DNA of 40,466 nt. It comes from a virus. A program made the position numbers and the translations under genes. A model generated the notes under the pieces. It was not told the origin of the DNA and searched no databases. It worked only from the letters and a program-made list of their open reading frames with translations. The DNA is taken from positions 1-40,466 of the IMG/VR virus record IMGVR_UViG_3300004807_000047. One strand, given 5' to 3'. Positions 3,427 through 19,976 of this stretch are shown piece by piece; position 1 is the stretch's first letter, and every line of letters starts with the position of its first letter.

Positions 3427-3645
3427 TTACTCGTCTTCGTCTTTGAACTCGTCTTCGTCCTCTTGCACATATTCTTTCAATGCTTTTTTAGTAGAGCTAT
3501 CAGTGCTGCCAAATTCTACCAATTCTTCGTCGTTTAACATATCAACTAAAATACTCATTAGATTATCTGCAGCTTCTTGTCTATCCTTTACCGGGATATA
3601 TTGTTTTAAAATAGTATATGTTTCTATTAATACTTCAATGTCCAT
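3427..3645 (-). CDS. Conserved acidic phage protein, 72 aa
   Basis: The chosen start is ATG 3645 because AAAGGGAACC lies just before it; an upstream in-frame start at 3705 would lengthen overlap with the SPASM-domain frame. The protein begins MDIEVLIETYTILKQYIPVK and continues DRQEAADNLMSILVDMLND. The end is very acidic (EDEDEFKDEDE). Similar short proteins occur near recombination genes of cyanophage-type T4 relatives, from memory. Function is unknown. Its start overlaps the SPASM frame by 11 bases. Confidence 0.65.
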   Translation of the reverse strand: MDIEVLIETYTILKQYIPVKDRQEAADNLMSILVDMLNDEELVEFGSTDSSTKKALKEYVQEDEDEFKDEDE

Positions 3646-3949
3646 TTGGTTCCCTTTTAAATTGTAATATATCATCCGTACATCCCGTACATGTGGGTCG
3701 TTCACAGATAGTTAGATTATCTAGTACATGCCATTCTGTAAAAATATTACCAAGATGATCGTTTTTACATTGCCCACCAAAAACTTCAAAGTCTTTGTTT
3801 ACGTCAATGCGATTATGTCCTGCAGCACATTCCCAGCCTTGCCATTGATCTACGTTTTCGTTGTGCAACCAATTTGCACTCATCAAATATGACTCATTGT
3901 TATTTAATGTCACTTTGCAATTGTAGTATGTATGATTTTCAAACTTCAA
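3635..3949 (-). CDS. SPASM domain in a separate frame (radical SAM partner)
   Basis: The frame can begin at TTG 3949 with AAGGGA about 10 bases upstream. It encodes 104 residues with the SPASM cysteine pattern: C41-A-A-G, C61, then GN at 67-68, C82, C87 and C90. Such domains bind auxiliary iron-sulfur clusters behind a radical SAM core and normally form the C-terminal part of the same chain. Here the core ends 11 bases inside this frame, in the frame one base behind (+1 relation). It may be a split enzyme, a +1 frameshift product or a gene broken by mutation. All cluster cysteines are kept, which argues that it is still used. Confidence 0.65.
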   Translation of the reverse strand: MKFENHTYYNCKVTLNNNESYLMSANWLHNENVDQWQGWECAAGHNRIDVNKDFEVFGGQCKNDHLGNIFTEWHVLDNLTICERPTCTGCTDDILQFKREPNGH

Positions 3950-4562
3950 GATTTAATTTCCCTTGCATAATTGGATAACTTCTAGTTTGATGGCTGTAGT
4001 TGATCTTGTTTACTGTATAACTTATATCGTGCTGATTTAATAGTTCCACATATTTTGGGATTCGATCTTGATTCCAAAATTCGTCCATGATAGCAACTTG
4101 TAGAAATTTTGTTGAATCTATAGAGTTTTTTAATTTTATTATCATATCAAAAAATCTAGTCTCGTTGATAAATTCTGAATGAACACTAAATGCAATATTA
4201 TCCATCACTTTAAACAGTTTAAAATAATATTTGTACGTGGCACTACCATTTGTTGTCAACATCAATTTGAATAGATGTTGGTTGTAATGTTCGCGAAGCC
4301 AATCAACAAATGGTAAAAAGTTTTTGTTGGTTGTTAACTCTCCGCCGGTAAATGAAATTTTGTATGGCAAATTACGATGATGTGTTTTATCATATATACT
4401 TATCCATGCTTGTTGTAATTTTTCCAATGAATGATGTTTGCTAGAATTGTCGTGCGAATTTGGCGAGCAGTACATGCAATCGTAATTGCAACGTATACCA
4501 ATTTCCCAATTAAGAGAAAAATAATTTTCGGTGGGTTCTACTTGTACTACTCGTAAGTGCAT
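3939..4562 (-). CDS. Radical SAM enzyme core without its own SPASM domain
   Basis: This 207-residue protein holds the radical SAM signature C25-x3-C29-x2-C32 (RCNYDCMYC) that binds the 4Fe-4S cluster, the glycine motif SFTGGELTT, and a partial barrel to about residue 200. The start at ATG 4562 follows the uvsX stop by a few bases. The usual C-terminal SPASM domain is missing from this frame and present in the overlapping frame 3635-3949. The fused length would be about 310 aa, normal for a small radical SAM/SPASM maturase. Enzymes of this class modify peptides, proteins or small molecules; no candidate precursor peptide is adjacent. Confidence 0.8.
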   Translation of the reverse strand: MHLRVVQVEPTENYFSLNWEIGIRCNYDCMYCSPNSHDNSSKHHSLEKLQQAWISIYDKTHHRNLPYKISFTGGELTTNKNFLPFVDWLREHYNQHLFKLMLTTNGSATYKYYFKLFKVMDNIAFSVHSEFINETRFFDMIIKLKNSIDSTKFLQVAIMDEFWNQDRIPKYVELLNQHDISYTVNKINYSHQTRSYPIMQGKLNLEV

Positions 4563-4564
4563 GG

Positions 4565-5635
4565 TTATTCTTCAACAGTTTCTTCAACAGTTGAGGTTCC
4601 CACAACCATATGCGGATTTGCTGTAACATCTGCCATCACACGATCCAAACATCCATCATCATTGCGTTCCCATCCTTTGCGGAACTTTTTAATGATTTCG
4701 CCATCTGCAGTTGTATATACCAAACTGTTACCTTCTTTCTTTAGTAGATCTTTTCCTTCAATTAGGTCAGTCAGTCCAGAATACGGGTTCATACCTGTTT
4801 CATATGGAATCTTGACTTGTACACTTTCAAAGGGTTTAGCATAGCGTGTCTTCATAATCTTACACGCAGCTCTAATACCTTTTACTTCTGATATCTTGTT
4901 ACCGTCTTCGTCTTCTTTCAACTTTAACTTACGCATAGCAACCACAATTGAGCTTGCATAGATAAAGCCTTGTCCGCCTGAGATTTTATCATCAGGATCA
5001 AACATGTCTTGACTAGCGTATGTGTGATTGGTACACACCAAGCCCAAGTTCAAATCACCAAACATGTTTACACAGTTACGTACCAGGGCAGTGAGTGCTT
5101 TGGGCTTGCGTCCAAGGTCACCTTTCAAGTCACCGGCTGCAAACTGATTAACATCTGTGGGAGTCAACAACATGCCCAGGCTGTCAATCACAAACAGTAC
5201 CTTGGGACGCTGGTCTTCGGGAATGGTTTTGTACTCTTTCACAAAGTCATTGATCATTTTGGCAAGATCATCAATCATGGCCATGTTAAGTTTAAGTAAT
5301 TTGTCTTCGCTGGTGTCTACATCCAGTGCTTTTAACCACGCTTCATCTAGTGCATTTTCTGTATCAACTAGAATAACATAAATGCCCTGTGCCTGTGCGT
5401 TTTTAATCAAATTACCGCTACAGATAAAACTTTTACCTGCGCCTGACTCACCGGCAAACACGGTAACTTTGCCCATCGGGATTCCCTTGTTAAAGTCGCC
5501 CGAGATAAGATAGTTCAATGCATAGTTGTTGGTTGAAATCCAATCGGTGGGATCAGTAAATCCCACTGAAATTCCGTCAATGCTTTTTGTAATGCTTTTT
5601 CTAAATTTGCTTACGTCAAATGGTTTAGTTGCCAT
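4565..5635 (-). CDS. uvsX: UvsX RecA-like recombinase
   Basis: This 356-residue protein has the RecA/UvsX ATPase core. Walker A is GESGAGKS (62-69), Walker B is VLFVIDSLG, and the DNA-binding loop region contains DDKISGGQGFIYASS. The N-terminus and the acidic end (STVEETVEE) fit UvsX, which is about 390 aa in T4. UvsX carries out strand exchange on gp32-coated DNA and supports recombination-dependent replication. A ribosome site (AAAGGAAA) precedes ATG 5635. It lies directly downstream of the modification cassette (2-base gap), so those genes and uvsX share a transcript. Confidence 0.95.
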   Translation of the reverse strand: MATKPFDVSKFRKSITKSIDGISVGFTDPTDWISTNNYALNYLISGDFNKGIPMGKVTVFAGESGAGKSFICSGNLIKNAQAQGIYVILVDTENALDEAWLKALDVDTSEDKLLKLNMAMIDDLAKMINDFVKEYKTIPEDQRPKVLFVIDSLGMLLTPTDVNQFAAGDLKGDLGRKPKALTALVRNCVNMFGDLNLGLVCTNHTYASQDMFDPDDKISGGQGFIYASSIVVAMRKLKLKEDEDGNKISEVKGIRAACKIMKTRYAKPFESVQVKIPYETGMNPYSGLTDLIEGKDLLKKEGNSLVYTTADGEIIKKFRKGWERNDDGCLDRVMADVTANPHMVVGTSTVEETVEE

Positions 5636-5637
5636 GA

Positions 5638-6780
5638 TTAATTTCCTTTGAGTTTGTATAAGTCTTTGAATATTTTACTACCGTTGATGTTTCTACGTCG
5701 ATCCATTTCGGCTAATTTTTTAAATGCGTTATCCAAATCAGCACGGTACGGAGTCGCTATATAATTTAATAAATTAACATACCCGTCTTCGAGTAAGAAT
5801 CCCGGGTGTTGATTTATTCGATCAGCAAGAGTTTGTTTTAACGATTGTAACACATCGTTTGGTAAATTCCTAATATTTAGGTATTCAGGGTTTAGCAATG
5901 CTCCAAGAACAAAACTGTTGTTGTGAAATCCCATTGCTTTTAAAAAATCTATGCATTCAAATAAACTGTTGTAGTTTAATAAAAAATACAACATATTAAA
6001 TGATATTTTGTGTCCCAGTGTTTTTATATGCTTGAGATTTGATAAAAAATCTTTCCAGGAGCCGCCATACCGAATATATTCGTATTCTTCTTCGATAGTT
6101 TCCAAACTCACAATCCAATGTACATTCTGAAATTTGCATATGCGTTCAAATATTTGAGTATCGACTTTGCCAAGGTTGGTGTTTATTCGTAGGTTAACAT
6201 CGGGACCTATTAGGTCCAACAACTCTAGATTTTCCTTCATTAGCAGGGGCTCGCCCCCGGCCATGTATACATGTTTTAGTTGTTGGGAGTGTTGAAATAT
6301 GTATTCTTTGAATTTGGCACGTTGTTCATCGGTGGGGGTGCGAGGTCGTATGTTCAATTCACTGGCCCATTTGCTACTAAATTCAGGGCCACAATACACA
6401 CAGGCTTGATTACACAAGTTGGTCCAGCGCACATCAATTGTCTGCAGATCAAAATTGTGTGCACGATAAGTGTGCATTGGCACATCTTTTAATTCTCGTA
6501 TGTAAAATACCCTATCACTGATGATATCAAAACTCTTTTTACCAATTTCCAATTCGTGACAGGGACGACAATTTTCAGTTGAAACCTTGTCAAGAATCAT
6601 GGATTGTCTTGTGCTATTTTTTGGTCCAACCACTATTTCTTCTATTGGACTATCACAGATATTGCCAATGACTTCTGCGCTGCGAATACAGTTCTTTACA
6701 CGACCGTCAAAATTATACATCAAGCCGGTCCAGGGCATGGGGCAAAATACCGGATTGGTTAATGCGTCTTTTGGAGTCAT
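5638..6780 (-). CDS. Twitch-type radical SAM enzyme 1, 380 aa
   Basis: An N-terminal half-SPASM (twitch-like) domain holds C13-P-M-P-W, C31, the GN motif IGNICDSPIEEI and C71-x2-C74, enough for an auxiliary iron-sulfur cluster. The radical SAM core follows with C123-x3-C127-x2-C130 (CNQACVYC) and AGGEPLL. The order auxiliary domain then core is the reverse of classic SPASM enzymes. Its ATG overlaps the SDR stop as ATGA, giving translational coupling. Homologues in phages exist under the name twitch-domain radical SAM protein, from memory; substrates are not known to me. The product may act on a peptide, a sugar or another small molecule. Confidence 0.85.
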   Translation of the reverse strand: MTPKDALTNPVFCPMPWTGLMYNFDGRVKNCIRSAEVIGNICDSPIEEIVVGPKNSTRQSMILDKVSTENCRPCHELEIGKKSFDIISDRVFYIRELKDVPMHTYRAHNFDLQTIDVRWTNLCNQACVYCGPEFSSKWASELNIRPRTPTDEQRAKFKEYIFQHSQQLKHVYMAGGEPLLMKENLELLDLIGPDVNLRINTNLGKVDTQIFERICKFQNVHWIVSLETIEEEYEYIRYGGSWKDFLSNLKHIKTLGHKISFNMLYFLLNYNSLFECIDFLKAMGFHNNSFVLGALLNPEYLNIRNLPNDVLQSLKQTLADRINQHPGFLLEDGYVNLLNYIATPYRADLDNAFKKLAEMDRRRNINGSKIFKDLYKLKGN

Positions 6781-7280
6781 TGTAAAGATACGTCCAATAC
6801 GTCTAGGTCCAGCATATCCAATAATTTTTTAGCCCATAGTGCGGGGTCTGTGCCACCATCTCCCTGTGTATTGACCTTTCCAGGACGTACTATGCGAAAA
6901 CCTATTCCTAATTTTTGATGCCGCAATTGTTTTACTGATTCTTCTAATGCAACTTTTTGTATACGATATTCAGTCATGCCCAATCCTGGTAACACTGATA
7001 CCGGATCCTGCGTCATTATGGTGCTGATTACTATAATCTGTTTTTTACTTCCTTGCCAACGACGTGCCATTTCAAATAACAATTCAGTTTGTGCAAATCC
7101 TGATTGTGCATTGTTGACAAAAACATCACATGGCTCTATTAGACTGGCTATTTTTTGAACGTTACGAATATTGAATCCATCACGTTTGCTTAATCCAACT
7201 ATGCTGTGACCGCGTGCAACATATTCATTGGCCATTGCTTGGCCTATTCCGGCAGTGTGTCCTGTTATTGCTATTATCAT
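6777..7280 (-). CDS. Short-chain dehydrogenase/reductase (SDR)
   Basis: This 167-residue compact Rossmann enzyme has the cofactor motif ITGHTAGIG (5-13), NNAQSG in place of NNAG, a serine in VISTIMTQ and the catalytic pair YRIQK (Y-x3-K). IVRPGKVNT matches the conserved PG segment. At 167 aa it is much shorter than the usual 250, lacking parts of the substrate-binding end, as in some phage and surface-sugar SDRs. It overlaps the 2OG-like gene upstream and the radical SAM gene downstream by 4 bases each. It probably oxidises or reduces a sugar or alcohol made or modified by the other cassette enzymes; that is inference. Confidence 0.8.
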   Translation of the reverse strand: MIIAITGHTAGIGQAMANEYVARGHSIVGLSKRDGFNIRNVQKIASLIEPCDVFVNNAQSGFAQTELLFEMARRWQGSKKQIIVISTIMTQDPVSVLPGLGMTEYRIQKVALEESVKQLRHQKLGIGFRIVRPGKVNTQGDGGTDPALWAKKLLDMLDLDVLDVSLQ

Positions 7281-7741
7281 TTCAGTAACCTAACGGGATC
7301 ATTTTTAAAAGTAAAACTGGCCACAATTCTTGGCACTTCAGCTGCATAGGTTCGTTCTACACTGTGTGCAATTTGACTGTTAAATGCCAACGGAAGTGGC
7401 ATGTCTAGTACTTCACCTATCATGAGATCATTTTCATACCATCGATTGGCCCATCCCTGTGTGTTATGCACCGGAAAATTTACCTTGGCCACCACTGGTA
7501 ACTCATCTATGTGTTGCGGTAAATGTGTGTCATCTGCCACCAAAGTAATTGCAGCATGCAGCGGAACTAATTTATATTGTTTAAAAAAATCACGTAGTTC
7601 AGGAACATTATCAAGTATTGTATTAATATCAACAAAGTTCCAACCAAACTTGTAGGAATCAATTGGTGCTAAACAACGATATATTTTATCTGAGATTACT
7701 GCAACATTGTCGCAGGCTAATTCAACATAGGGTTTGATCAT
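7277..7741 (-). CDS. 2OG-Fe(II) oxygenase-like protein, 154 aa
   Basis: The protein has the facial-triad pattern of a double-stranded beta-helix oxygenase: H77-I-D79, a distal H126 in QIAHSVER, and R138 in PRIVASFTF as the likely 2-oxoglutarate ligand. VNFPVHNTQGWANRWY and FNSQIAHSVER resemble aspartyl or prolyl hydroxylase-type families. It overlaps the upstream radical SAM gene by 20 bases and the SDR by 4. It likely hydroxylates a peptide, nucleotide or small molecule. The family assignment is from motif spacing, not from a search. Confidence 0.65.
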   Translation of the reverse strand: MIKPYVELACDNVAVISDKIYRCLAPIDSYKFGWNFVDINTILDNVPELRDFFKQYKLVPLHAAITLVADDTHLPQHIDELPVVAKVNFPVHNTQGWANRWYENDLMIGEVLDMPLPLAFNSQIAHSVERTYAAEVPRIVASFTFKNDPVRLLK

Positions 7742-8621
7742 GTATTCCTCTCAATTGTTTTTGTTGTTGTATATATCTATCAACAAAGTCTTGATCAAGA
7801 TTATCAACACTGAGTGCCTCAGGTTGCTTCAAATATGCATACGAATGATCAATACCGTGGTGTTTTGCAAATTCGATTATTTCCGGCAGTTGATGTTGAT
7901 TTAATACGCTGACTGTGGTCCACAAGTTCAAATTGACCGGCATCGTTTTGTATATCATCAAATTTTCATAGAATTTGTCCCACTTGATGGGCCAGCGCAC
8001 AAAATCATGTACTGCACCGATACCATCAAAACTCACAGTAACTGTGACTTGTACTCCGCGATATATCAATGGCAACAGCTCTTGTAACACTGTGCTGCAG
8101 TTGGTGTTCAATCTCACACTGCGTATACTGGGCGGTAAGTTTGCCAGTATGTGCTTGTAGTTCTTGCTATAGCTAGGTTCGCCACCGTTGATGTCTAGAT
8201 GAACCACACGTTCTAACGGCAATGACCAAAAGCCTCTGGAATTGTCAACAATGGGAAATTGTCGACCATGTAAACTTCCTATTCGAGTACTGAGATTGGC
8301 ATTACAGGTCATGCAACCACTGTTGCACAAATTGTCTAGAACTCCACCAACTGTTAGATAGTCAGGAACTGTTTGCTCTTGATCAAATTTGATAGCGTTC
8401 AATCTAATACTGGTATCAGTTTCCAATTCAGTTTCTTGGCATCGCGTGCACTCACTAGGCCAGATATCGTTTTGCATAGATAATTCAACCTCGTGCAACC
8501 AAAAACTTAATTCCATAACAGTTAAATTATCGAACTCGGGGGCATTGACCATGTGACCGCAACGACTCACTGTACCGTTGGGGTTAAATCTCACAAAGTG
8601 TCTTAGCCTAGGACATTGCAT
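7722..8621 (-). CDS. Twitch-type radical SAM enzyme 2, 299 aa
   Basis: The N-terminal auxiliary domain has C3-P, C21, and C58-x2-C61, with NPNGTVSRCG as the typical strand-turn. The core follows with C99-x3-C103-x2-C106 (CNSGCMTC) and DINGGEPSYS. Later VSFDGIGAVHDFVR matches the SPASM-type core segment. At 299 aa it is shorter than the cassette's other radical SAM, mostly at the C-terminus. It overlaps the sulfotransferase gene by 19 bases and the oxygenase by 20, so all are probably made together. The core sequence differs clearly from the other three radical SAM proteins, which argues for a distinct reaction rather than a recent duplication. Confidence 0.85.
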   Translation of the reverse strand: MQCPRLRHFVRFNPNGTVSRCGHMVNAPEFDNLTVMELSFWLHEVELSMQNDIWPSECTRCQETELETDTSIRLNAIKFDQEQTVPDYLTVGGVLDNLCNSGCMTCNANLSTRIGSLHGRQFPIVDNSRGFWSLPLERVVHLDINGGEPSYSKNYKHILANLPPSIRSVRLNTNCSTVLQELLPLIYRGVQVTVTVSFDGIGAVHDFVRWPIKWDKFYENLMIYKTMPVNLNLWTTVSVLNQHQLPEIIEFAKHHGIDHSYAYLKQPEALSVDNLDQDFVDRYIQQQKQLRGIHDQTLC

Positions 8622-9214
8622 ATATCTTGACTTCGTTGAATTATTTCTTCGTGGATATAGGGATGTTCTTGTTCGATATACTCACATACCCGCCGAAAAC
8701 TCACTGTTCGCCCTATAAAATTTTCGTATATGATTTTGTCCAGCATTAGATAATAATGCAGTTTACGATTTTCACTGAAACGATCTAACAAGTTTTGGTC
8801 CCGGCTGAGTGTGTTCCAGACTTCACTTGTAGTATCTCGCAATTCATCAATGTGTCTAAAATACATCCAAGCATCACAATGTCGTGCCAGATTCACAATC
8901 CAATGAAACTGCAAACTAAAATGACTGTTCAAGAATAAAAATTCTTCTATCATTTTTAATGCAGTCTCGCGATCAAGATCGTCACGATGATTCAAGTATG
9001 TTTGTACCCCGCTGACATATCTATCAAAAGGTTCACGCAGATATACTTCTACAGTTTTAATATCCGCATGTTGGTAATATGGTACATGGCGCAGTGCAAT
9101 TTTGTTCATTGTGCTACTGGCGTTCTTGTATATAGGATATACAAATTGATTTGTGGTCAGTTCGTATATTTTATACTGATCAGGAAACAGTGTGGGATCT
9201 AGATAGGAGAGCAT
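8603..9214 (-). CDS. Sulfotransferase-like protein, 203 aa
   Basis: Two PAPS-binding motifs are visible: the P-loop-like YPIYKNASSTM (5'-PSB, residues about 26-36) and YLREPFDRYVSGV (3'-PB, about 58-70). These define Golgi- and phage-type sulfotransferases, which move sulfate from PAPS to a sugar or protein hydroxyl. ATG 9214 is preferred since it begins just before the conserved domain; a TTG at 9256 would add a low-complexity segment encoded by a hairpin. No clear ribosome site is seen; the hairpin at 9224-9247 lies directly upstream. It is the first gene of the cassette after gp32. Confidence 0.75.
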   Translation of the reverse strand: MLSYLDPTLFPDQYKIYELTTNQFVYPIYKNASSTMNKIALRHVPYYQHADIKTVEVYLREPFDRYVSGVQTYLNHRDDLDRETALKMIEEFLFLNSHFSLQFHWIVNLARHCDAWMYFRHIDELRDTTSEVWNTLSRDQNLLDRFSENRKLHYYLMLDKIIYENFIGRTVSFRRVCEYIEQEHPYIHEEIIQRSQDICNVLG

Positions 9215-9223
9215 AATGTGAGG

Positions 9224-9247
9224 AGGTGGGGAACCGTCACCCCACCT
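9224..9247 (-). other. Hairpin between gp32 and the cassette
   Basis: A GC-rich 8-bp perfect stem (9224-9231 with 9240-9247, 8-base loop) lies between the gp32 stop and the sulfotransferase ATG. It lacks a T-run, so it is more likely an attenuator, an RNA-stabilising end for gp32 mRNA or a processing site than a strong terminator. Confidence 0.6.
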
Positions 9248-9259
9248 GTGACACAAGCA

Positions 9260-10255
9260 TTATTGCTTTTGACGGTTTCTAATCATGGCCAGGATGTCTT
9301 CGGCCTTTTGACTGGATGCAGGTTTAGCTACTGGAGCACTTGCAACTGGTGCATCATCTTCATCTTCTTCGATTGCTGGGGTCGGAGCAGGTACTACTTT
9401 TGCCACTGGAGCTGGTGTATCATCTACAGCTGCCGCTGGTGCTGCCTTGCCTTCTACGTTCAAACCATAAGGCTTGTAGTAGTTGGCCCAACGATCTGCG
9501 TCATATGGCTCACCGTTGATGCTGGCTTCAAACATTTCTTTGATGACCTTGAGTTCAACTTCGCCTGGTTTCTTGGGCAAGAAGTCGCTGAGATTAAACA
9601 ACCCAAATTGATCAATCACGCCCTGTTCTTCTGCAGTCAATGCCGATTCCTTACGGCTCCACTTGCTGGTACTGTAGTCAGCATAACCACCTTTTGATGT
9701 TTTGACAATTTGGAAATCCAACCCACGCAAAAAGTCAGTTGGTAATTCTTCCATTTCGGGGTCCATTAGAGCCGCTTTAATGATATTAAAGATCTGTGGG
9801 CTAATGGTAAATCTACGAATAGAGTTTTCTGGACTTTTGTCATCTGCTAGTGGATTGTCACGCACAAATCCTTGAAATAGATAACTTTTCTTTTTCCAGT
9901 ACTTGCGACCCATTTCTTCCAAACCGGGATCTTTGAACCAAGGACGAACCTCGGCCAATATCGGACATACGCTGCCATCGTTGTACATTTCCACACAAGG
10001 AACTTGTACCACTAGTGGTTTGCTTTCTGCTTGTCCTTTTACACCCGCAAACGGCAATTTGATCATTGCACGCTCGGCCCAAAAGAAACTGTTCTTGGTA
10101 TTACCGTCTGGTAAAAAACGAACTCGGGATGTGGTGCCTTCGGGGATGTTCCAGTGTGGATAAATTTGATTGTCTCCACCGGATTGTGAGTTACCGCTGC
10201 CGCGGTTATCAGTTGCTTGAAGTTTTGCGCGAATTTCTGCTAAAGTTAGTGCCAT
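9260..10255 (-). CDS. 32: Single-stranded DNA-binding protein gp32
   Basis: This 331-residue protein has a basic N-terminus (MALTLAEIRAKLQ), a central OB-fold core rich in aromatics (PHWNIPEGTTSRVRFLPDG, GRKYWKKKSYLFQGFV), a possible metal site around C107-x8-C116 and an Ala/Pro-rich linker ending in the acidic segment EEDEDD and a short basic tail. This is the architecture of T4 gp32 and its aquatic relatives. It coats single-stranded DNA during replication, recombination and repair. It has its own promoter with a palindrome at the start site and a strong ribosome site (AGGAG). Confidence 0.9.
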   Translation of the reverse strand: MALTLAEIRAKLQATDNRGSGNSQSGGDNQIYPHWNIPEGTTSRVRFLPDGNTKNSFFWAERAMIKLPFAGVKGQAESKPLVVQVPCVEMYNDGSVCPILAEVRPWFKDPGLEEMGRKYWKKKSYLFQGFVRDNPLADDKSPENSIRRFTISPQIFNIIKAALMDPEMEELPTDFLRGLDFQIVKTSKGGYADYSTSKWSRKESALTAEEQGVIDQFGLFNLSDFLPKKPGEVELKVIKEMFEASINGEPYDADRWANYYKPYGLNVEGKAAPAAAVDDTPAPVAKVVPAPTPAIEEDEDDAPVASAPVAKPASSQKAEDILAMIRNRQKQ

Positions 10256-10306: not shown

Positions 10307-10323
10307 ACTAGCACTGTGCTAGT
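10307..10323 (-). promoter_or_regulatory. Palindrome overlapping the gp32 transcription start
   Basis: A perfect inverted repeat, ACTAGCAC and GTGCTAGT around one central base, overlaps the -10 box and the predicted start. It may be an operator or form a 5' hairpin on the gp32 mRNA. Confidence 0.6.
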
Positions 10324-10350
10324 ATATAACAATAGTATTTATGTTGTCAA
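10321..10350 (-). promoter_or_regulatory. gp32 promoter, sigma70 with late box in spacer
   Basis: TTGACA (10350-10345), an 18-base spacer and TATACT (10326-10321) form a sigma70 promoter. CATAAATA (10343-10336) in the spacer is a late-promoter-like box. gp32 is needed early and late, which fits a dual promoter. Confidence 0.7.
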
Positions 10351-11808: not shown

Positions 11809-12369
11809 CTATTTATTCTCGTATGTCACGAAACTAGTATAACTGGTGACTCGAATTGTGTCTGCAGGCACCGGATTCAGCATTCCGTGCCATTGTAGCG
11901 GTTGTATGCCGTCTTTGTCGGGTAAATTTAGCATTATGTATCCCGAATTCGGTACACTCTTGGGTTGAAATCGTATGTCTGCAGAATCTTTACTGTTATA
12001 AAAAGTTGTACCAAATTCTTCTGAGGGCATGACCCAAAACAGTTGTATAGCGGCAGCAAGCCCACCATCTGTGTGAATACTCACAGTAAAATCTGGCTCA
12101 TCCAACCACCATGTGGTACTTGCAAACATAAATTTGACGCCACACGCTCGATTCAGTTTAAAAATAGATTTTTCTATCAAGGGATTGAGTTTGGCCAGGC
12201 TGGGATGATCTTTATCTAGCATGCGTCTTTTCCAAGATTCTTGATAAGGTTGGCGTTGCCATGCAATTGCATTCCAATCTAGATGTGCTAATTCGGTCGC
12301 ATATTCTTCGGGCACCGCATTGCGGATATGAAACAGTCGATTGGTTTCGTCTACTGCAATTATATTCAT
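11809..12369 (-). CDS. 2OG-Fe(II) oxygenase, 186 aa
   Basis: The double-stranded beta-helix core is recognisable: H99-T-D101 (SIHTDGG), distal H161 (QWHGML) and R173 (TIRVTSYTSF), which bind iron and 2-oxoglutarate. Between them lies GYIMLNLPDKDG. Enzymes of this size in T4-like aquatic phages are common and probably hydroxylate a protein, nucleic acid or metabolite. The ATG overlaps the terminase stop (TAATG), so it is translationally coupled to gp17. It is not closely similar to the oxygenase at 7277-7741, so the two are likely to have different substrates. Confidence 0.8.
   Translation of the reverse strand: MNIIAVDETNRLFHIRNAVPEEYATELAHLDWNAIAWQRQPYQESWKRRMLDKDHPSLAKLNPLIEKSIFKLNRACGVKFMFASTTWWLDEPDFTVSIHTDGGLAAAIQLFWVMPSEEFGTTFYNSKDSADIRFQPKSVPNSGYIMLNLPDKDGIQPLQWHGMLNPVPADTIRVTSYTSFVTYENK
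11810..11817 (-). promoter_or_regulatory. Late-type promoter box before the 474-aa gene
   Basis: AATAAATA on the minus strand ends 6 bases before ATG 11804 and overlaps the stop of the oxygenase gene. The first base differs from the T4 consensus. Confidence 0.45.
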
Positions 12370-18911: not shown

Positions 18912-18919
18912 TATTTATA
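18912..18919 (-). promoter_or_regulatory. Perfect late promoter box for gp16-like gene
   Basis: TATAAATA matches the T4 late consensus exactly. It overlaps the stop of the upstream radical SAM gene and puts the expected start at the ATG 18907. Confidence 0.75.
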
Positions 18920-19976
18920 AGAGATGTTTTTGGATTCTACCAAATAGGTCTAGGCCGTGTTTGGCATCATCTCTTTTTATACGAAACATGCCGGTGCGAA
19001 ACAGATGAGCGGTATCTTCGGTTTCCATTCTACGTATTGAAGATTCCAATACTGCACGAAAATTTCCTGTGGTTTTGGGAATAATTTTTTGTAGTATGTC
19101 CCGTGCACGATGTCGGCGATCAGGTGGCATTGAACTCAATGATAGTGTATCGGGATGTTCTATATAAATTGCATTTATTTCAGGTATCTGCACACTGTTA
19201 AGATAATCTACTAGAGTTTCCAGTTCCCAAACATTCATCATGCTGATGCAAACAAATACTGCCAATCTAAAATTGCTGTGTGTTTTGCTATATTCAAGCA
19301 ACTGTTCAAGATTTTTTTGTATATTGTCCCAGCTGCTACCAATACGTATCATATCGTTTAATTCGCCATAGCCTTCTAAACTGACTTGAAAAAATATGTT
19401 TCGAAACGGTCGCCAATAGTCAAATATGTGCCGATCTTTATAGGTCAAGGTCGTCAGGTTACTGTTGTATCTCAATGTAACTTTTTCAGGATTTTTGATC
19501 AGTTCAAGTACTCGCCAGTGATCGGGATTTTGAAAAGGTTCTCCGCCGGTAAAGTATACATCGTTTAATTGATCAAAGTCAATATCTGACACGTAATCAT
19601 CCAATGGAGCACGTGTGATATAATGTTCTCGTCCTTCAGCTTTGGCAATGGTGCTACTAAAAAATGGGCCGCACATTCTACAGGCAAGATTACAGATATT
19701 GGTATTACGTAAATCTAAAAAGTTGATGCCGTTGGTGATGGGTTTGGTATTGTAGAAACTTTCCCTTAGGCTGGTCATGCCGTCGGCTTCCGACGTCCAA
19801 CAGGCCGAACAGGCTGTATGTTTTTCACCACGATCAAATGCGGATCGTATTTCTATAAATCTCTGCTGACCCGATTTAAAAGTTTCTGCGTAGTTATTAT
19901 CGAACAAGCAACAAGGAGCAACCTTGCCATTGGGTAATATAGTTAACCCGTTTGTTAGTGCATTACATTTGAGCAT
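18915..19976 (-). CDS. Twitch-type radical SAM enzyme 3, 353 aa
   Basis: The N-terminal auxiliary domain has C4, C22 or C23 in LPNGKVAPCCLFDN, and C56-x2-C59. The radical SAM core follows with C95-x3-C99-x2-C102 (CNLACRMC) and YFTGGEPFQN. LRYNSNLTTLT and SLEGYGELNDMIRIGS are the later barrel strands. The domain order matches the two cassette enzymes. It lies apart from them, among head-assembly genes between gp4 and the gp16-like gene. A late-type box (AATAAATA, 19989-19982) lies a few bases before ATG 19976. Late timing suggests it could act on a virion component, but this is inference. Confidence 0.85.
   Translation of the reverse strand: MLKCNALTNGLTILPNGKVAPCCLFDNNYAETFKSGQQRFIEIRSAFDRGEKHTACSACWTSEADGMTSLRESFYNTKPITNGINFLDLRNTNICNLACRMCGPFFSSTIAKAEGREHYITRAPLDDYVSDIDFDQLNDVYFTGGEPFQNPDHWRVLELIKNPEKVTLRYNSNLTTLTYKDRHIFDYWRPFRNIFFQVSLEGYGELNDMIRIGSSWDNIQKNLEQLLEYSKTHSNFRLAVFVCISMMNVWELETLVDYLNSVQIPEINAIYIEHPDTLSLSSMPPDRRHRARDILQKIIPKTTGNFRAVLESSIRRMETEDTAHLFRTGMFRIKRDDAKHGLDLFGRIQKHLL

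Follow-up and report, generated by a model that had tools for sequence, protein, structure and literature searches.

Introduction

The described systems closest to the locus reported here are biosynthetic clusters and radical SAM cassettes of phages. For jumbo cyanophage clusters (S-SSM6a) with carbamoyltransferases and 2OG oxygenases, capsular polysaccharide decoration or production of a secondary metabolite has been proposed (PMC7824862; the words "radical" and "sulfotransferase" are absent from its text). Excerpts of two further reports describe 12 radical SAM genes in the environmental T4-like genome TARA_ERS488813_N000010 (PMC5332604) and radical-SAM gene cassettes in pelagimyophage islands (PMC7029224). 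Among individual enzymes, BtrN is a twitch enzyme that performs the two-electron oxidation of an aminocyclitol (PMC9012708), and the twitch sequence is no predictor of the reaction (PMC6231123).

Here, a cassette of overlapping enzyme genes is analysed that lies between gp32 and uvsX in a stretch of viral DNA of 40,466 nucleotides (IMG/VR record IMGVR_UViG_3300004807_000047; the whole stretch is called the window below). A preliminary description of the window knew of no described phage pathway with this set of genes, and our literature search likewise found no description of it.

Results

Layout of the locus

In the ORF list, the five genes lie head to tail, all on the minus strand, with gp32 on one side and uvsX on the other. 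The features of the locus are as follows:

10321..10350, minus strand: sigma-70-like promoter match upstream of gp32 (TTGACA-18-TATACT; 11/12 consensus match, weak)
9260..10255, minus strand: gp32-like ssDNA-binding protein, upstream boundary of the insertion site (ORF; relatives; phage CBB homologue)
9224..9247, minus strand: hairpin between gp32 and ST (AGGTGGGG-loop-CCCCACCT; from the sequence)
8603..9214, minus strand: ST, sulfotransferase-like protein, 203 aa (ORF; K30 and RxPxxRxxSG motifs; AF2; BFVD homologue)
7722..8621, minus strand: rSAM2, N-terminal-twitch radical SAM enzyme, 299 aa (NF033640 below cut-off; 4+3 invariant Cys)
7277..7741, minus strand: ox, Fe(II)/2OG oxygenase-like protein, 154 aa, facultative (invariant HxD, H, R; AF2; Foldseek)
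6777..7280, minus strand: SDR, short compact short-chain dehydrogenase/reductase, 167 aa (adh_short; invariant TGxxxGIG, YxxxK)
5638..6780, minus strand: rSAM1, N-terminal-twitch radical SAM enzyme, 380 aa (NF033640 above cut-off; 4+3 invariant Cys)
4565..5635, minus strand: uvsX recombinase, downstream boundary of the insertion site (PHROG UvsX-like, 6.7e-64)

Neighbouring genes overlap by 19 nt (ST/rSAM2), 20 nt (rSAM2/ox) and 4 nt (ox/SDR and SDR/rSAM1, ATGA in both), and gaps of 45 nt and 2 nt separate gp32 from ST and rSAM1 from uvsX, respectively; the gene order, coordinates, overlaps and distance to uvsX in the preliminary description were exact to the base. The gp32 homologue of phage CBB is annotated as ssDNA binding protein and adjoins the CBB RecA-like gene. 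The hairpin 3' of gp32 is present throughout the clade; covariation was seen in a version embedded in ST. The promoter match is regarded as weak because the sites found by the scan are no more frequent than in shuffled sequences.

Linkage and constraint in relatives

IMG/VR loci were collected with each of the five proteins as seed in turn, and across them the arrangement ST-rSAM2-(oxygenase)-SDR-rSAM1 is found again, in unchanged order, at the gp32-uvsX junction, the co-occurrence that the preliminary description had proposed to look for. Of 202 distinct rSAM1 sequences, 196 are accompanied by SDR (3 cut by contig ends), 195 by rSAM2 or a variant (6 cut), 186 by ST or a substitute (16 cut), 182 by uvsX (19 cut) and 171 by gp32 (31 cut), so that only 5 missing-neighbour calls lack a contig end as explanation; the SDR, rSAM2, ST and ox seeds lead to the same gene set. 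The overlaps are kept in 96/96 relatives for ST/rSAM2, 27/27 for ox/SDR and 97/104 for SDR/rSAM1. Median dN/dS values of the cassette genes are 0.066-0.144, compared with 0.068 for uvsX, and the constraint on rSAM1, rSAM2 and SDR equals that on uvsX. Judged by the overlap counts and dN/dS, the overlapping layout is not due to chance.

Pairwise distances of SDR and rSAM1 correlate at 0.80, and those of ST at 0.49-0.62 with all, so that ST is not separable from the backbone. The oxygenase slot may hold ox, another 2OG-like protein or nothing, ST and rSAM2 are replaceable together by a different pair, and ST-rSAM2 is at times found without SDR-rSAM1. The core of the cassette is four genes (ST, rSAM2, SDR and rSAM1), with the oxygenase as an optional fifth; the set first proposed for the window keeps its order and overlaps and loses its fixed fifth member.

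An insertion site of uncultured jumbo phages

With unbiased gp32 and uvsX seeds, the junction was empty in 60 loci, held the whole cassette in 21 and other cargo in 42. On the uvsX tree (branches with support <95 collapsed), the cassette switches between present and absent at least 16 times; this tree pools loci from several seeds, and recombination beside the insertion may blur it. These three states of the junction and the repeated changes on the tree indicate that the cassette is gained and lost mostly as a block, which makes the gp32-uvsX junction an insertion site for whole pathways.

The same observations bear on two other explanations. If the genes were unrelated cargo working separately at a permissive site, the many other genes taken up by the junction and the occasional occurrence of ST-rSAM2 without SDR-rSAM1 would be expected; near-complete linkage from every seed, the conserved overlaps and the repeated gain and loss as a block speak against this reading, which is largely refuted and the least probable of those considered. 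It is also highly improbable that the cassette acts on phage DNA or on nucleotide precursors, a role that would account for the location next to replication genes. The one argument for it is the location in a replication/recombination block, but unrelated cargo at the same junction means that location says little about function; the cassette contains no base-modification enzyme, and we know of no sulfotransferase that acts on phage DNA.

Many uncultured jumbo phages share the cassette, nearly always as a set and at one site. A tblastn search with rSAM1, ox, ST and SDR yielded no match in 50,697 cultured-phage records; two rSAM1 hits with E about 5 are meaningless. The nearest isolates are jumbo myoviruses, and the junction is empty in the three inspected. 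Among isolates, jumbo phages have the closest uvsX and TerL, and an affiliation with pelagimyophages was rejected on this ground. Most of the large relatives have 9-15 twitch radical-SAM genes. No bacterial cassette was found in a GTDB scan with an rSAM1 profile and two short peptide patterns, which divergent copies could escape, and the rSAM1 relatives that the peptide patterns retrieved from GTDB genomes show only 24-30% identity.

Radical SAM enzymes

rSAM1 scores 228.1 bits against N_Twi_rSAM (NF033640), above the cut-off of 170, as does another gene of the window (18915-19976), while rSAM2 (127 bits) falls below it and is related without being a formal member. We know of no reaction assigned to this family. 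The CxxxCxxC motif of the radical SAM superfamily is invariant among homologues of both enzymes (C123, C127 and C130 in rSAM1; C99, C103 and C106 in rSAM2), and so are four additional N-terminal cysteines (C13, C31, C71 and C74; C3, C21, C58 and C61), from which a twitch auxiliary cluster is predicted. BtrN, from butirosin biosynthesis, has a four-Cys, fully ligated auxiliary cluster, matching these four cysteines, whereas its twitch domain is C-terminal and those of rSAM1 and rSAM2 are N-terminal. By analogy, the two enzymes may catalyse a two-electron alcohol oxidation like that of BtrN. A PDB sequence search with the rSAM1 profile gave no match. A role in anti-phage defence was rejected: similarity of rSAM1 to viperin is weak and below the model cut-off (NCBIfam viperin, 30.7 bits, cut-off 180), and PADLOC pVip matches are weak and partial.

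Many SPASM/twitch enzymes have peptide substrates, and the only significant sequence match of rSAM2 to a radical SAM structure is SkfB (E 3e-05), a twitch enzyme that modifies a peptide. The cassette might accordingly act on a small peptide, on a host protein or on a structural protein of the phage: rSAM1 and rSAM2 would alter side chains, and SDR, the 2OG enzyme and ST would complete the modification, for example by tyrosine or hydroxyl sulfation. The SkfB match is, however, limited to the general radical SAM domain, the overlapping genes leave no space for a precursor gene, and no RRE domain was matched in profile searches. The cassette therefore lacks both features of a RiPP locus, precursor gene and RRE (a distant precursor is conceivable), and we consider peptide modification unlikely.

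Oxygenase, SDR and sulfotransferase-like protein

In ox, H77xD79, H126 and R138 are invariant in homologues; a PDB sequence search gave nothing useful, and the AF2 model (pLDDT 96.4) matches 2OG oxygenases with a Foldseek probability of 1.0, which places the HxD...H iron site and the 2OG-binding arginine of Fe(II)/2OG enzymes on a predicted double-stranded beta-helix. SDR scores 27.7 bits against adh_short (cut-off 26.6) and has the invariant TGxxxGIG and Y105xxxK109 of classical SDRs. At 167 aa it is unusually short.

Among 54 ST homologues, K30, R60, P62, R65 and G69 are present in 54/54 and S68 in 52/54. K30 and the RxPxxRxxSG motif (residues 60-69) correspond to the 5'-PSB lysine and the 3'-PB arginine/serine of P-loop sulfotransferases. 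Sulfotransferases rank first when the AF2 model (pLDDT 88.8) is compared with the PDB by Foldseek, at a non-significant E of 0.075 and TM 0.27; in BFVD, the model reaches TM 0.93 to a homologue named Sulfotransferase family by annotation. Pfam Sulfotransfer_2 (PF03567) does not match the ST of the window and matches 1/54 members (E 0.009), and a PDB sequence search with ST gave nothing useful. From its motifs and these weak structural matches, ST is predicted to transfer sulfate. An APS kinase match occurs in 1/8 large related records, and host PAPS is for this reason assumed as the sulfate source.

The catalytic motifs to which the preliminary description referred are present and, apart from S68 of ST, invariant in the aligned homologues. 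We looked both for separate occurrence of the genes without conserved pairing and for missing cofactor sites, and found neither.

Discussion

Linkage, strong purifying selection, catalytic residues and folds make it very likely that the cassette genes form one shared pathway, as originally suggested, with the qualification that the oxygenase is not a constant part of it and that ST and rSAM2 can be exchanged as a pair. That a four-gene core is kept whole, in one order and at one site, with recombinase-level selection on three of its genes, clearly points to a real pathway; the core occurs in a large group of phages in which no carrier isolate was found.

Gene context in a relative and in bacterial neighbourhoods leads us to favour, tentatively, a saccharide as substrate. 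In a 182-kb cassette-bearing relative, a carbamoyltransferase adjoins tandem twitch radical-SAM genes, and other parts of the genome encode a DegT/StrS aminotransferase, a GT8 and a cytidylyltransferase/mannose-6-phosphate isomerase. Bacterial twitch radical-SAM relatives have in their vicinity either a Wzt-like exporter with PhyH/2OG oxygenases or a carbamoyltransferase. This context comes from other genome regions or other genomes, and the few neighbourhoods were picked by inspection. The cassette itself contains no glycosyltransferase or nucleotide-sugar genes, as a polysaccharide-modification cluster would.

Some of this context would also suit a diffusible small molecule, aminocyclitol-like or a sulfated secondary metabolite, that serves the infection as a signal, as an antibiotic or by inhibiting a defence. 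Such a mix of enzymes is typical of natural-product tailoring clusters, carbamoyltransferases occur in the same genomes and a StrS-type aminotransferase in one, and a secondary-metabolite product has been proposed for the jumbo cyanophage clusters (PMC7824862). However, the cassette has neither a scaffold-building enzyme nor an exporter and would depend on host metabolites, and we hold this product to be improbable.

For the favoured saccharide, rSAM1 and rSAM2 would generate 5'-deoxyadenosyl radicals and, with a BtrN-like four-Cys auxiliary cluster, oxidise positions of a sugar-like substrate that are not activated, for example an alcohol to a ketone. SDR would then re-reduce this position or oxidise it further, which would yield an epimerised or oxo sugar; the 2OG enzyme, where present, would hydroxylate the substrate and ST would add sulfate from host PAPS, in a reaction order that we propose. 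The pathway would thus end in a sulfated saccharide with edited stereochemistry, placed on the envelope of the infected cell or on the virion, with a presumed use against superinfection or host defences. The mechanism as a whole, a block-transferred biosynthetic operon with which jumbo myoviruses edit and sulfate a saccharide, has in our estimate an even chance of being correct. Rather doubtful is a virus-only pathway in which an N-terminal-twitch radical SAM oxidase and SDR invert stereocentres, ST sulfates and the junction trades pathways whole; if true, it would yield a type of sulfated sugar or metabolite without a described bacterial counterpart.

A small, ordered enzyme set is now at hand for reconstitution, and it has become testable for what reason 9-15 twitch radical SAM genes are present in some jumbo phages. 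Compared with known systems, the carbamoyltransferase/2OG/halogenase clusters of S-SSM6a are likewise auxiliary biosynthetic clusters of jumbo phages with several tailoring enzymes, including 2OG oxygenases, but differ in their other enzymes and hosts, and no gp32-uvsX location is described for them. TARA_ERS488813_N000010 and the pelagimyophages resemble the present phages in having many radical SAM genes per genome and cassettes that differ between close relatives; the excerpts of those reports mention neither a sulfotransferase/SDR set nor a fixed gp32-uvsX location. As far as these excerpts go, the radical-SAM cassettes of pelagimyophages sit in a host-recognition island, whereas the cassette described here occupies the gp32-uvsX junction.

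Organization of the cassette and identity of its products

The 40,466-base virus record belongs to a large myovirus and carries on the minus strand, in this order, gp32, a sulfotransferase-like gene (ST), an N-terminal-twitch radical SAM gene (rSAM2), a 2OG oxygenase-like gene (ox), a short-chain dehydrogenase/reductase gene (SDR), another twitch radical SAM gene (rSAM1) and uvsX. The coordinates, the successive overlaps of 19, 20, 4 and 4 nt and the 2-nt gap before uvsX match the preliminary description exactly. In a promoter scan, where sites were no more numerous than in shuffled sequence, a good sigma-70-like sequence was found upstream of gp32 and the second best within the SDR gene; a single transcript for the cassette is plausible. 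The window also contains one tRNA-Met gene (668-742).

rSAM1 is a member of the twitch-domain radical SAM subfamily NF033640 (228 bits, cut-off 170); rSAM2 is a relative that, at 127 bits, falls short of this cut-off. Both possess CxxxCxxC and four more N-terminal cysteines, invariant across the aligned homologues. The ox protein has no significant Pfam match; its HxD, H and R residues are invariant among homologues, AF2 models it with very high confidence (pLDDT 96.4), and Foldseek assigns it to the 2OG oxygenases with probability 1.0. SDR is barely above the Pfam cut-off, with both SDR motifs invariant. Two sulfotransferase motifs are present in all or nearly all of the 54 ST homologues. Structural evidence for the identity of ST is mixed: sulfotransferases rank first among PDB matches without reaching significance, and the nearest viral structure is that of a homologue (48% identity) annotated as a sulfotransferase.

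Co-occurrence and conservation of the cassette genes

Relatives were gathered from IMG/VR using seven seeds (rSAM1, gp32, uvsX, SDR, rSAM2, ST and ox). All four core genes (ST, rSAM2, SDR and rSAM1) were present in 56 of 64 new loci from the SDR seed and 64 of 73 from rSAM2, the remainder in both cases being nearly all cut by contig ends, in 54 of 67 from ST (12 others cut, one partial) and in 49 of 63 from ox (the remaining 14 all cut). When each distinct rSAM1 sequence was counted once (n = 202), absences not caused by a contig end numbered three for SDR, one each for rSAM2 and uvsX, and none for gp32 or for ST or its substitute; starting from rSAM1, this count is blind to the few loci with ST-rSAM2 and no SDR-rSAM1 (L125 and two patterns among SDR- or rSAM2-seeded loci). 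ST-rSAM2 gives way to a different small protein together with a divergent radical SAM gene in five or six loci that retain SDR-rSAM1; this suggests that the cassette is made of two sub-pairs.

The overlaps are kept in 96/96 (ST/rSAM2), 27/27 (ox/SDR) and 97/104 (SDR/rSAM1) relatives, and 60 of 65 loci lacking ox show a 4-nt rSAM2/SDR overlap. Median dN/dS values, calculated with dS near saturation for several genes, are 0.066 for rSAM1 and SDR, 0.071 for rSAM2 and 0.144 for ST, compared with 0.068 for uvsX and 0.095 for gp32; the value for ox (0.123) derives from two pairs only.

Insertion site and inheritance

Loci gathered with gp32 or uvsX provide a fair test of cassette distribution because these queries are independent of the cassette. 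Among 123 junctions with both genes, 60 are empty, 21 contain the whole cassette and 42 contain other cargo. In a phylogeny of uvsX from 172 loci, cassette presence switches about 30 times; collapsing the branches with support below 95 leaves at least 16 switches. These numbers are rough, since the loci mix several seeds and the tree represents one gene adjoining the site. The closest isolates by uvsX and TerL are the jumbo phages CBB, GAP32, Phosso, Atu_ph07 and PA5oct, and a 340-kb record (L507) bears the cassette. In the three isolates inspected (Phosso, Atu_ph07 and CBB), the preceding gene directly abuts uvsX; in CBB it is named ssDNA-binding protein. The cassette is therefore cargo that a jumbo-phage lineage carries, as opposed to a core gene set.

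Some of the other cargo at the junction (L084-L218) consists of large radical SAM genes; SDR-containing sets also occur there, as do SGNH-like proteins and proteins carrying a [YF]xxGxxGxxL-like motif. Several of these end in a short HGQTI-like tail, probably reflecting overlap with the uvsX start codon.

By eye, a strong hairpin can be seen after gp32 whether the locus is empty, has the cassette or has other cargo (9224-9247 in the window); in most cassette loci, such as L015, L017 and L095, it sits inside the 5' end of the ST coding sequence. There it covaries, with 85.7% of cells paired and 24 double-sided changes versus 7.5 in shuffles. The hairpin may be a terminator or processing site of the gp32 transcript, behind which the cassette would have been inserted.

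Additional twitch radical SAM genes and possible carbohydrate context

Among related records, those of about 140 kb and longer have 9-15 twitch radical SAM matches in most cases, with exceptions of one (a 139-kb record), six (137 kb) and zero (116 kb); none above cut-off was found in 14 reference prokaryotes. In a 182-kb relative with the cassette, six twitch genes form a run adjoining a carbamoyltransferase gene, a DegT/StrS aminotransferase is encoded some kilobases beyond, and a GT8 protein and a cytidylyltransferase-type enzyme are encoded elsewhere in this record. Carbamoyltransferases occur in six of nine large records, one of the six being devoid of twitch genes. For distant bacterial relatives of rSAM1, one genome has a Wzt-like exporter and PhyH/2OG oxygenases encoded nearby, and another a carbamoyltransferase. 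This handful of phage and bacterial neighborhoods, picked by inspection, points to carbohydrate tailoring.

Runs of five or six twitch genes near a carbamoyltransferase were observed in the 182-kb record of L015 (L275) and in the records of L507, L302, L380 and L435; they are apparently conserved between relatives and represent a candidate second, larger pathway. The terL gene of the 182-kb relative (L272:15373-17912) is split, its halves separated by an HNH-like ORF, possibly an intein or intron.

The window itself encodes an extra twitch radical SAM protein amid structural genes (18915-19976; NF033640, 222.9 bits, above cut-off). At 3635-4562, two separate but overlapping ORFs each encode one half, radical SAM (3939-4562) or cysteine-rich and SPASM-like (3635-3949); this split is also seen in L013, L057 and L075, with larger single-ORF forms at other loci. 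Between terL and a 474-aa protein, a 186-aa protein with an HTDGG motif (11809-12369) had no convincing family match in profile searches and might be another 2OG-type oxygenase.

Proposed mechanism

BtrN and other twitch enzymes whose auxiliary cluster is fully ligated perform two-electron oxidations, in the case of BtrN on an aminocyclitol alcohol (PMC9012708). Oxidation by a twitch radical SAM enzyme together with SDR could invert or reset an alcohol center, ox would hydroxylate, and ST would sulfate using PAPS, presumably from the host because APS kinase is rare in phage records. The analysis shows the ox fold and the catalytic residues of the cassette enzymes; we infer the substrate, the sequence of reactions and the advantage to the phage. 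The reaction is not predictable from twitch sequence (PMC6231123), and hence the product could also be a peptide or a small molecule.

Comparison with known systems

In a literature search covering few subscription papers and no preprints, which leaves novelty unproven, no published description of the set, its fixed site or its block-wise inheritance was found. Related arrangements are already known: two reports describe phage genomes with many radical SAM genes (PMC5332604) and radical SAM cassettes in pelagimyophage islands (PMC7029224), and tailoring clusters have been described in jumbo cyanophages (PMC7824862).
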